A DNA stretch of 64,000 bases from an uncultured Caulobacter sp. (GTDB lineage Bacteria; Pseudomonadota; Alphaproteobacteria; Caulobacterales; Caulobacteraceae): the NCBI GenBank assembly GCA_913776195.1, contig CAJYMH010000019.1, positions 1 through 64,000 on the forward strand, in the 5' to 3' direction. Made by a program: the position numbers and the translations under genes. This document shows, piece by piece, positions 2,241-6,065 of this stretch (positions within the stretch are counted from its first letter, which is position 1; the number at the start of each line of letters is the position of its first letter). The notes beneath the pieces are model-generated. The model was given only the letters and a program-made list of their open reading frames with translations. It was not told the origin of the DNA and ran no database searches.

Positions 2241-3179
2241 TCAGTTGCGCGGCGGCTTGGGCGGAGCAGGCGGCCGCGGGGCGGCGCGGACCATGGCGGC
2301 GGCGTTGGCCCGGGCCTCAGCGGCGGCGGCCATGGCCTCGGCCCTGGCTTCAGCCTTGATGCGGCCGGCTTCGGCGGCGTTGACGACGATGCGGCGGTGA
2401 CTGTTCTTGCAGCCGCGCGCGGTGATGCCCGACGGCAGGCGGGTGGAGCTGCCGACGCAGGCTTCGTCGATCTGGTCCTGGGTCAGGCCCTTGGCCCGCG
2501 ACAGGTCCGCGCCATGCAGCGAGACGCCGCTGAGGTCGGTGTTGCGGAAGTCCGCCCCGCGGAAGTCACCGCCGTTGAGGACGGCGCCGGTGAGATCGGC
2601 GTTGCGGAAATCGGCGTTGGAGAAGTTGCCGCCGCTGAGGTTAGAGCCGTTCATCTCCGCGTTGCGGAAGTCGACCCGCATCGCCGAGGCGTTGACCAGG
2701 ACCACGCCGTGCAGCTCGCCATGGCGCAGGTCGGAGTCGTCCAGGTCGGCGCTGGAGAAATTGACGCCGCGCAGCTCGGCGCTGCGCAGGTCCACGCGGC
2801 GCAGGCTGGCGTTGACGAAGTTGGAGCCGGTGGCCTCCAGGCCCTCCATCTGGGCGCCCGACAGCTCGGCCGACTGGAAGTTGGCGCCCATCATGTAGGC
2901 GCCGCGCAGATCAGCGCGCGACAGGTCGGCGCTGGCGAAGTTGGAGCCGATGATCTTGGCGCCGCGCATGTCGGCGCCGACCATCTTGGCGCTCTGGAAG
3001 TTGGCGCCGTTGATGCGGGCGTTAAGGAGCTTCTTGCCCGACAGATCGCACCCGCTGCAAGACCCGCTGAGCGAGATCATGCGCGCCACATCCTTTTCAC
3101 CGTTTGGGGCGAACGCGTGAGCGTTCCCGCCGGCGGCGAGCAGGATGAGGGCGGAGAGGGCGAAGGCGGTACGCGACAT
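2241..3179 (-). CDS. Secreted pentapeptide-repeat protein
   Basis: A 312-aa protein with a Sec signal peptide (MSRTAFALSALILLAAGG..AHA) and then roughly 200 residues of A(N/D)LXX-type pentapeptides (for example GANFQSAKMVGADMRGAKI), which fold as a right-handed quadrilateral beta-helix. The mature N-terminus carries a CSGC motif just before the first repeat. The repeats end with a common cap-like sequence (KGLTQDQIDEACVG), followed by an Ala/Glu-rich coiled segment and a Pro-rich tail. The start at 3179 is chosen because it begins the signal peptide and is preceded by GGAG; the upstream in-frame extension has no signal-peptide character. Periplasmic location is inferred; the function is unknown. 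It is convergent with aspS. Confidence 0.85.
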   Translation of the reverse strand: MSRTAFALSALILLAAGGNAHAFAPNGEKDVARMISLSGSCSGCDLSGKKLLNARINGANFQSAKMVGADMRGAKIIGSNFASADLSRADLRGAYMMGANFQSAELSGAQMEGLEATGSNFVNASLRRVDLRSAELRGVNFSSADLDDSDLRHGELHGVVLVNASAMRVDFRNAEMNGSNLSGGNFSNADFRNADLTGAVLNGGDFRGADFRNTDLSGVSLHGADLSRAKGLTQDQIDEACVGSSTRLPSGITARGCKNSHRRIVVNAAEAGRIKAEARAEAMAAAAEARANAAAMVRAAPRPPAPPKPPRN

Positions 3180-3239
3180 TACATACGCTCCAGCGGCGGT
3201 TACGGTCCCCATTTGGTCCCGGGCCCGCTGAGGCGCCAC

Positions 3240-6008
3240 TTAATTCGAGTTAATGGCCCCGCCATCGGCCCGCCCGGCCTGAGCGCCGCAGGTGTCGCAA
3301 ACCGCCATTCCGCCGCGCTGGACCACGGCCTGGTCGCCGCACGAGGCGCACATTCCGGCTGAAACCCCAGCGGTTGCAGGGGTTTCAGCCTTGCGGCCGC
3401 CGAAGGGCAGCAGGACCAGGTTGTCCGGCGCCGCCCCCCGGGAGAAGCCCTTGGAGATGAATTTGGACGCGGGCTGCGGCGTTTCGTCCTCCACCCCCTC
3501 CGCCGCGTTCTTGCCGGCGCCCAGACCGTCAGCGTTGAACTCCGACGGGTCGGCGTTGGCGAGGTCGTCGCGGTCCAGATAGGACACGCCCAGCTCGCGG
3601 AAGATGTAGTCGAGGATCGAGGTGGCCGAGCGGATGGAGTCGTTGCCCGTCACCGGGCCGGCGGGTTCGAACCGGGTGTAGACGAAGGCCTCGACGAACT
3701 CGTCCAGGGGCACGCCATGTTGCAGGCCGATGGACACGGCGATGGCGAAGTTGTTCATCAGCGAGCGGAAGGCGGCGCCTTCCTTGTGCATGTCGATGAA
3801 GATCTCGCCCAGCTCGCCGTCGTCATACTCGCCGGTGTGGATGTAGACCTTGTGCCCGCCGACGGCCGCCTTTTGGATGTAGCCCTTGCGGCGGTCGGGC
3901 AGCTTGCGGCGAGATCGGTCGCGCTCGACGATCTTCTCGACGATGCGTTCACGGATCTCAGGGGCGCTCTCAAGCCGGCGGCGTGGGGTTTCCTCCACCT
4001 CCGGCAGGTCGAGGGCGAAGCTGGCCGGGGCGGCGGCGCGGGTAAGGCGCAGGGCGCGGACCCCGGCGCGGGCGGCGGCGGCCTGAAGACGCGCGGCCTC
4101 GGTCGGGGTGTCGGCGAAGTCCAGCTCCAGCACGAAGGCGGCCGGGGTGCAGACGAAGGTCTCCACCGCCGCTGTCATGGCCAGGCGGGCGGGCAGGGCG
4201 ATCTCGGCAGGTTCGGCGAAGACCGATTGAGCCTTCTCACCCAGGAAGGGAGCGTCGGACAAGCGACGAGCGCCGAGGGCGTGGGCCTCGGCGGCGGCGA
4301 TTTCGTCGGCTGAGAAGCCGGCGAAGGCCAGGGTGTCGAAGTCCGGCTCCATGACCGCGTCGCCGCCGGCGCCGAGAACGTCGCAGACGAAGCCGGCCTC
4401 GATCACCGCCGGCGCGAAGGCGGCGCGTAGGGAGCCCGCCAGGGGCAGGACCGCCTCGGCGGCGGCGATCTCGTGCGCGGTGAAGCCCTTGGCCTCCAGC
4501 GCGGCGTGGTCGATGGCCGGGGCCTCGCGCAGGTCGCCAACACCGAGCGCATGAGCGCGCAGGTCGTCCTTGAGGCCCAGGCGCGCCGCGCCTAGCAGGG
4601 CGGCCTCGGCCAGGACGGGGACGATCTCGCCGTCGGCGGTCTCCGACACGGTCATGGCGCCGGTCCAGGGCGCGGCGCCTAGGGGCGCAGCGAGGCGCAG
4701 TGCCATGTCGGCGTCCTCGAAGAGCGCGCTGACCGAGGCGTGGGCCAGTTTTTCGGGATGATCGGCGGCGCCGCTGAACAGGGTGGCGGCGCGCGCGGCG
4801 ATGTCGCCCTTCAGCTTGCGGGCGGCCTGGGCGCGCTTGCGGAGTGTGGCGGCGAGGGTGGCGCGGTCATCCTCGCCCACGGGGGCGGCCCCCAGTTCGG
4901 CGGACGCGTGGAATGCCTCGGCGGCGAGCAGGGCGTAAAGGGCGGAGGCGGCTTTGCGGCCGTCCTCGGCGCCGTAAGGCAGGCCGAGGCCGACGACGTG
5001 GTCGCTGAGGCCGGCCAGGGTCAGGTCGATGCGCCCCGACGGCAGGCCGGCCGCGCCGCGTTCGATCTCCAGCGCGGCGGTCATCAGGCGAACGACGTGG
5101 GCGAAGGCGTCGAAGTCGAATCCGGCCTCGCCAGCGAAGGCTCGGATGTCGATGGCGGCGCGAGGCGCGGCGGCGGCCAGGGCCGCGGCGTCGGCAGGAT
5201 CGAAAGCCAGGGTCAGACGGCCTGTCTCCCAGCCGGTCTGGGCGGCGCGACGAGCGGCGGGCTCGGCGGCTTCCACCGCCTTGCGGCTGGCGGAGACGAA
5301 CAGGCGAGACGGGGCGGCGAGGACCGGGGCGGCCTGGGCGATCGGCGTCGCGCCGCTGCGGGCCAGCAGGATGGCGTCGGCGATCTGGGCGTCGTCGGCG
5401 CCAGCTTCACGCGCCGAGCGGGCGGCGCGGGCGAGGGCGGTGTTGCGGCGCGGATCGGCGCAGGCGGCGGCGTCGCCTTCGCAACGGATCACGACGTCGG
5501 AGACGGCGGCCAGACGGCCGGCGAGGTGCAGGGCGGCGCGCTCGGCGCAGGCGGCGGCGCGGACATCGGCCACATGGCGGCCGGCGGCGGCGGCGAATTC
5601 CAGATCGTCGAGGACGACGGTCTCGCTGCGCGCGGCCGGCTGGAGCGCGGCGGGGGCGACAAGGCCAAGAGCGAGGGCGGCGAACAACTCCTCGCGGAAA
5701 CCTTGCGCGTCCGCCGTCTTGGCGAACAGGCCCTGGGCCAGACCATGCGCGGCGAGGCGGCGGGCGTAGCGGTCAGGGCCTCCGGCCAGCAGGACGCCGG
5801 CGGGAGATTCGGCGATCAGGGCCTTGGGCGTGTCGGCCTTGGGCAGATCGTGCGGAAGCTGGGCGGCCCAATCCAGCCAGGCCTGTACGCGGGCGTCGGA
5901 CCAACTCTTGGGAGCCAGGACTCCGGCGAGGGCGTCAGCGGTCTCGACCGTGCGGAGCTCGACCTCCGCCGCACGCGCGTCGGCCGAAAGACGCTTTACG
6001 AACCGCAT
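3240..6008 (-). CDS. NrdJ-like TSCPD-domain protein lacking a recognisable catalytic core
   Basis: A 922-aa protein. The last ~230 residues match the C-terminus of alphaproteobacterial vitamin B12-dependent (class II) ribonucleotide reductase Nrd[72 protein letters not shown], and a terminal CxxC..CxxC zinc-type motif (CASCGD..CDTCGA). Upstream, Ala-rich segments resemble NrdJ only faintly ([28 protein letters not shown]), and I find neither the NPCGE/CxE active-site loop nor the usual ~1200-aa length. I infer a degenerate, probably non-catalytic paralogue or regulator of NrdJ. The start at 6008 is preferred because GGGGAG sits 8 nt upstream; an ATG at 6032 is the alternative. NrdR-like boxes lie in the promoter. 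Confidence 0.75.
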
Positions 6009-6065
6009 GAAGCGACTCTCCCCATTCACCATGCCGCGAAAAGTTAGAGGTCAGGGGCGGGGTTA

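Follow-up and report, generated by a model that had tools for sequence, protein, structure and literature searches.

A class II ribonucleotide reductase homolog of Caulobacterales that has lost its catalytic core and retains a strongly conserved TSCPD domain

INTRODUCTION

Catalytically dead large subunits of ribonucleotide reductase (RNR) are found in betaherpesviruses (M45/UL45 type), and short TSCPD-domain proteins without an RNR barrel occur in other bacteria. For the class II enzyme NrdJ, the C-terminal tail domain is known for electron relay and has been linked to oligomerization, and its IscU-like part is without a reported role (PMC9669993). The same paper predicts an IscU-like fold for the domain, suggests that it oligomerizes, gives its role as not known, and states that most IscU-like class II tail domains lack Fe-S cysteines. 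Loderer et al. (PMC5704485) describe six cysteines in the tail of actinobacterial NrdJ, four assigned to zinc and two (Cys933 and Cys945 in S. nassauensis) to redox electron transfer; the authors' own zinc measurements disagree with one of the zinc assignments. In the same study, the tail domain (CRD) is required for the oligomers induced by dATP and dGTP. In C. crescentus, CCNA_01966 is named a vitamin B12-dependent RNR (PMC5869019), and a study of B12 use (PMC6538847) draws it as NrdJ in the pathway for nucleotide reduction. Here, we describe the corresponding gene of an uncultured Caulobacter sp., its relatives, and what they suggest about the TSCPD domain.

RESULTS

The window, which is the whole 64,000-nucleotide stretch of DNA analyzed, carries on its reverse strand an uninterrupted reading frame of 930 aa (3240..6032), confirmed as a real ORF, that we assign to a core-less NrdJ ortholog by reading frame, profile match, and homolog lengths. 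The start at 6008 (Met9, 922 aa) is probably the true one, because the two closest homologs among the best 120 of 6785 matches, P0002 and P0003 (92 and 91% identical, both labeled Caulobacter), have 922 aa. The sole Pfam domain above its cut-off is TSCPD (PF12637, 42.9 bits versus 22.8). The RNR barrel (PF02867) is matched below threshold at residues 292-381 (16.2 bits versus 23.9), and the protein scores 385.8 bits with the long NrdJ model NF005736, whose cut-off is 1737. The solved NrdJ 7b9p, which we take to be the R. sphaeroides enzyme, shows a colinear likeness to the protein, and the 7b9p and 7b9q matches fall outside TSCPD.

Several parts can be mapped, all on the reverse strand. Module A (residues 176-235, 5328..5507) carries RCEG-x4-AC-x-DP-x2-N, and its Cys pair is retained in 82 and 81 of 92 sequences. 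Module B (residues 485-600, 4233..4580), retained from NrdJ according to profile and alignment, contains two "GF-x2-EI-x2-AE" repeats recognized by eye. The TSCPD domain itself (about residues 706-830, 3543..3917; Pfam profile and alignment) is the best conserved part and has no conserved cysteine. It is followed by the linear motif SKGFSRG (residues 860-866, 3435..3455), of which S860, G862, R865, and G866 are invariant across the 92 sequences of alignment A1 and which has a counterpart in canonical NrdJ and in the SAR11 proteins described below. At the C-terminus lies a zinc ribbon, CASC...CDTC (Cys895, 898, 912, and 915; 3288..3350), where the canonical redox cysteine pair is absent. In other NrdJ relatives, the insert in module A (residues 315-385 of the canonical locus L172) resembles the TACO1/YebC N-terminal domain below threshold: in five of eight NrdJ-family proteins, the insert scored 12.6-22.9 bits with PF20772 (E 1e-4 to 0.19; cut-off 36 bits), and the domain was not found in the window's own protein at E up to 1.

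To examine the catalytic core, we aligned the window's protein with 90 proteins taken from fetched loci, of which 19 are canonical NrdJs with NPCSE; columns follow the numbering of L172. All 19 canonical loci taken have NPCSE, and N-x-C-x-E is found in none of 121 proteins (the window's protein and the best 120 of 6785 matches). In the window's protein, alignment places DPADA (residues 278-282, 5187..5201) at the site of this lost finger-loop motif and Ala289 at the next redox cysteine; the placement is approximate, as the region is poorly conserved and the Asn column is a gap in 40/40 family rows. Columns 218, 495, and 506 hold Cys in 0/40 Caulobacteraceae rows and 0/18 rows of other Caulobacterales families, so the barrel redox cysteines (218 and 506) are lost. 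Moreover, practically all 40 Caulobacteraceae rows are gapped throughout columns 201-250, and 83% of their cells are gaps in columns 251-300; together these columns presumably hold the specificity-loop region.

A sequence-only reading of this DNA had proposed a non-catalytic NrdJ relative, which is borne out by the disappearance of the NPCSE loop, of the redox cysteines in the barrel, and of the specificity-loop region; the alignment recovered no active-site Cys in any of the 40 and 18 rows. Judged by the lost active-site residues, AdoCbl-dependent reductase activity should be absent, and the alignment excludes catalysis by known RNR chemistry. The same reading had also suggested a cobalamin or dNTP sensor, which is unlikely through the old RNR sites because columns 201-300 are mostly deleted; TSCPD itself may still have a dNTP-responsive role.

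The redox pair of the tail has likewise been lost. All six tail cysteines are present in 18 of 19 canonical alphaproteobacterial loci, the exception (L169) having a broken end, and the positions equivalent to S. nassauensis Cys933 and Cys945 hold Cys in 0/40 Caulobacteraceae rows and 0/18 other core-less Caulobacterales rows. The four zinc cysteines, by comparison, are retained in 32 of the 39 family loci, in all 18 other core-less Caulobacterales, and in 85 of 92 aligned sequences overall. Among core-less proteins that bear the ribbon, either redox cysteine is found in 0/32 of the family, 0/18 of other Caulobacterales, and 0/2 of other orders, versus 18/18 canonical proteins. Seven of the 39 family loci (L057, L058, L059, L087, L088, L095, and L096) keep TSCPD and lack the ribbon; six belong to genus g15, one of these being 95% identical to an Asticcacaulis record, and one to g11. 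The C-terminus had been read as almost normal for NrdJ. This holds for TSCPD, in which 43 of 45 canonical-invariant residues are kept, but not for the extreme end, where two of six conserved cysteines are missing. The further idea that the protein supplies its tail to a genuine RNR is left unsupported, because no examined Caulobacterales protein retains the redox pair, and a redox relay through the known cysteine pair is excluded as far as the alignment goes. Separately, L123 and L169 (both in G206) are a canonical NrdJ with its last 180 residues in another frame (profile positions 1-1044 and 1043-1222), explained by an error in sequencing or by a break of recent date.

The genomic position of the gene is that of canonical NrdJ. 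The recurrent Caulobacteraceae order is aspS, a pentapeptide gene, the core-less NrdJ gene, an NDUFA12-like gene, DUF2155, aat, accC, accB, and aroQ. Within the fetched stretches, NDUFA12 is present at 37 of 39 family loci, the pentapeptide gene at 36, and aspS at 35; NDUFA12 is also present at all 18 other core-less Caulobacterales loci and at 8/13 (order) and 9/15 (class) canonical NrdJ loci. Because this position near NDUFA12 matches that of canonical NrdJ, the gene is a decayed NrdJ ortholog rather than the paralog first supposed, and descent from the long alphaproteobacterial NrdJ is found both in sequence (NF005736, 7b9p) and in position. Directly downstream in the window, on the same strand, lies the pentapeptide-repeat gene (2241-3239), which in the order also accompanies canonical NrdJ, at 11 of 13 loci, and whose likely N-terminus resembles a signal peptide by eye.

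The gene is widespread. Counting matches at E up to 0.001 as presence, it was found in 139 of 149 Caulobacteraceae genomes (126 of the 132 good genomes) and usually lies in a single aspS/NDUFA12/accBC cluster; the frame is open at nearly all listed matches, with one stop in a few. It is dispensable somewhere, since six good genomes of the family lack a match, all with NrdA; one of them, G002, has an intact short NrdJ besides. Of 150 genomes surveyed in the order, 29 score above the NF005736 cut-off and six carry a nearly full-length NrdJ just below it, these 35 being the genomes of family f5 (30) and five genomes of f4, while nine others have weak matches only, and 106 have core-less scores. 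The class survey (240 genomes) gave 139 above the cut-off, and TSCPD is missing from many of the alphaproteobacteria surveyed. Core-less proteins with TSCPD occur elsewhere at L194, L197, L198, L199, L203, L206, L207, and L208, and one genome outside the order, G483, apparently has two such copies (L197 and L213). The opposite pattern, with TSCPD lost or reduced to a weak remnant and the rest retained, is seen at L195, L200, L201, L202, and L204, in three families.

Within Caulobacteraceae, pairwise dN/dS (Nei-Gojobori) was computed on the 77 of 92 rows that remained once near-identical ones had been taken out. The summed ratio is 0.24 for the body (25 pairs) and 0.04 for TSCPD (24 pairs), with 0.17 for module A, 0.16 for module B, and 0.14 for the zinc end (22-25 pairs); with near-identical rows left in, body and TSCPD give 0.23 and 0.04. 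In every pair and every module, dN is below dS. Median body identity is only 24-37% (group medians over differing numbers of loci), and identity to the window's counterpart is higher for TSCPD than for AspS in 51 of 56 loci and higher than for AccC in 63 of 69, apart from near relatives (all about 90-94%) plus L333 and L335. Forty-five TSCPD residues are invariant in the 19 canonical NrdJs. When the window's protein (43 retained) and 11 others were scored for these, L188, L182, L177, and L197 kept all 45, L194 kept 43, L198 kept 42, and the SAR11 proteins kept 39 and 35. These comparisons show that the decay is not neutral and that the protein is under purifying selection, strongest on TSCPD.

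In one family, TSCPD stands alone. L199 (274 aa) and L203 (272 aa) have TSCPD and no barrel; we call the family SAR11 because a 98% identical protein bears the name Candidatus Pelagibacter. A match was found in 103 of 118 genomes and 44 of 45 good ones, with no stops inside the listed matches. The TSCPD-only proteins (L199, L203, L329, L330, and L347-L358) are about 275 aa long, lack the zinc ribbon, and have a new N-terminal region, for whose first 60 residues no clear relative turned up in the loci fetched from outside SAR11 (best E 0.08); a PDB search with the SAR11 protein gave no credible match (best E 0.94). At L329 the order is aroQ, accB, accC, DUF2155, NDUFA12, the TSCPD gene, and aspS, with zero gap to aspS, and L203 and L330 agree; in both genomes examined, NDUFA12 and aspS flank the gene. 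Of 78 possible pairs, 14 have dS below 1.6, and in these dN in TSCPD is 0.00-0.04 at dS 0.9-1.5.

How often the core was lost depends on the tree. A tree of six neighboring genes, built by a quick method on 51 rows (that of the window, 12 drawn from the 34 usable family loci, and 38 further rows), needs six changes between canonical and core-less, at least five of them forced by well-supported branches because canonical L159 and L166 nest among core-less clades; in this tree, the SAR11 rows are of odd composition and the adjacent L328 is a long branch. A tree on the 375 retained NrdJ columns disagrees, as in it a branch with support 99 has all 31 core-less Caulobacterales rows to one side, and L194 falls among the canonical rows. 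Parallel loss is possible, and so is a single loss combined with re-acquisition or with long-branch grouping. Provided that the core cannot be regained once lost, the cases of Caulobacterales, L194, and SAR11 do not go back to a single event.

As the sequence-only reading had anticipated, a separate intact RNR is present: the window's genome encodes class I NrdA (NLCSE, C-terminal ECLACQ) and NrdB, both elsewhere in the genome, and no NrdJ above the TIGR02504 cut-off was found in this assembly (83.75% complete). Such an NrdJ is present in 23 of 149 family genomes and absent from 126; G138 has both forms. The 16 genomes with core-less NrdJ include none with an ATP-cone in a long frame. Fifteen have one cone match each, in frames of 153-260 aa, which is NrdR size, and G000 has none; among 27 genomes without core-less NrdJ, only two (G297 and G427) have a long-frame cone. 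Compensation for gene loss by an ATP-cone was considered and rejected: in 15 of 16 genomes of the family and order, PF03477 matches were confined to frames of 157-193 aa, and the remaining genome had none. The genomes that lack the gene and gained no cone are G002, G013, G017, G031, G049, G066, G100, G110, and G163; long open frames in G017 and G031 are apparent upstream read-through (by eye), and G110 has no PF03477 match at all.

DISCUSSION

We consider it likely, from sequence comparison, that this protein is a pseudoenzyme whose TSCPD (IscU-like) domain has a binding or oligomerizing role independent of RNR. More generally, we strongly infer a TSCPD function that needs no ribonucleotide reduction, because purifying selection is strongest there and TSCPD survives alone in SAR11. 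The gene descends directly from the long class II NrdJ of alphaproteobacteria; as dNTPs could come from class I NrdAB, the catalytic machinery was lost, and the protein was retained under purifying selection, on TSCPD above all. Given the IscU-like fold and the oligomerizing role proposed for other class II tails, TSCPD is most likely a protein-binding or oligomerizing module that sits beside the barrel in NrdJ and would act in trans here, with the core-less protein as a non-catalytic scaffold or regulator and its shrunken body as the platform. By analogy, NrdA is the leading candidate partner, because it carries a homologous RNR barrel. A wider proposal, which we offer tentatively and with the balance against it, is that the TSCPD end of alphaproteobacterial NrdJ is an independent housekeeping function to which the reductase is merely attached: after the NrdAB takeover, the enzyme would have been hollowed out (Caulobacterales) or removed (SAR11), and TSCPD would persist to control dNTP supply or replication in trans.

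Some observations count against an RNR-independent role. Ten of 149 Caulobacteraceae genomes lack a match, including the six good ones (93-100% complete), which all have NrdA. In the class survey, 48 of 240 genomes have only weak matches of NrdA-like strength and 28 have none. The core-less proteins at L195 (f108), L200/L201 (f119), and L202/L204 (f125) have no TSCPD match or a weak partial one, L206-L208 retain only 26-27 of the 45 canonical-invariant residues, and TSCPD is not better conserved than AspS in 5/56 loci or than AccC in 6/69.

A sharper form of the pseudoenzyme explanation makes the protein a trans-acting regulator that senses purine dNTPs through its TSCPD and body and switches or assembles the cone-less NrdAB. 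The absence of long-frame cones from all 16 genomes with core-less NrdJ favors this, as do the CRD-dependent dATP/dGTP-induced oligomers of actinobacterial NrdJ (PMC5704485) and the roughly 8-fold tighter NrdJa-NrdJb binding with dATP (PMC4520616). However, the latter study credits the P. aeruginosa dATP effect mainly to NrdJa dimerization, cone-less NrdA is equally usual without core-less NrdJ (long-frame cones in only 2/27 such genomes), and no cone was gained in the nine genomes that lost the gene. We regard this specific form as doubtful.

An IscU-like Fe-S scaffold serving neighbors such as complex I would draw on the IscU-like fold described for class II tails (PMC9669993) and on the divergent NDUFA12 close by across the class; it is very unlikely, given that TSCPD columns 706-830 hold Cys only at 780 and 784, in 1 and 2 of 92 sequences, and that the cluster also contains unrelated housekeeping genes. 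We find it hard to credit a redox tail donor, which would use its C-terminal cysteines to reduce NrdA or a different RNR in trans, in the way that NrdJb serves NrdJa: the TSCPD plus zinc ribbon is indeed the NrdJb architecture (PMC9669993) and the zinc ligands are largely retained, but the redox cysteines are gone from every core-less ribbon protein examined, NrdA bears its own ECLACQ tail, and the SAR11 proteins and 7/39 family loci have no ribbon. A functionless, decaying relic would account for the low body identity and for the loss of the gene from some genomes; it is highly improbable in view of frames open at nearly all listed places (a few with one stop), dN below dS in every pair and module, retained synteny, and the retention of TSCPD alone in the SAR11 family. 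Finally, a working RNR with an unrecognized active site, which the colinear NrdJ likeness across much of the length and the C. crescentus annotation might suggest, is almost certainly wrong, with the active-site cysteines and specificity-loop region lost and NrdAB present.

The pseudoenzyme explanation bears on annotation. CCNA_01966 is very probably the C. crescentus ortholog, judging by its published names, the presence of the gene throughout the sampled genus, and the lack of a long NrdJ above cut-off in the C. vibrioides control genome. Its annotation as NrdJ would lead astray any model of the B12 requirement of Caulobacter and its relatives. The retention of the domain with the enzyme removed is a natural experiment that points to another TSCPD function, which becomes testable in C. 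crescentus and SAR11 bacteria. Within the open-access PMC full text searched, judged by titles and selected passages, we found no description of a core-less bacterial NrdJ, and none of a chromosomal one retained through a bacterial order and reduced to TSCPD in SAR11.

With the long alphaproteobacterial NrdJ (NF005736/PRK07562; 7b9p), the core-less protein shares genomic position, colinear modules, TSCPD, and zinc ribbon. It differs in lacking the catalytic loop, redox cysteines, and specificity-loop region, in its length (922 versus about 1230 aa), and in the presence of NrdAB. Pseudomonas NrdJb (PMC4520616, PMC9669993) likewise combines an IscU-like (TSCPD) domain with a zinc ribbon on a chain that has no functional barrel, but it supplies redox cysteines to NrdJa, its partner in one operon. 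In the core-less protein the redox pair is absent, and an NrdJa-type partner (NrdJ above the TIGR02504 cut-off) was not found in the window's genome. From IscU, the protein differs in that the Cys ligands of IscU are absent from its TSCPD. The dead RNR large subunits of betaherpesviruses are alike in being large-chain homologs that lost catalysis and took another role; those are viral, class I, and given to a different role, whereas the protein described here is chromosomal, class II, and conserved through a bacterial order.
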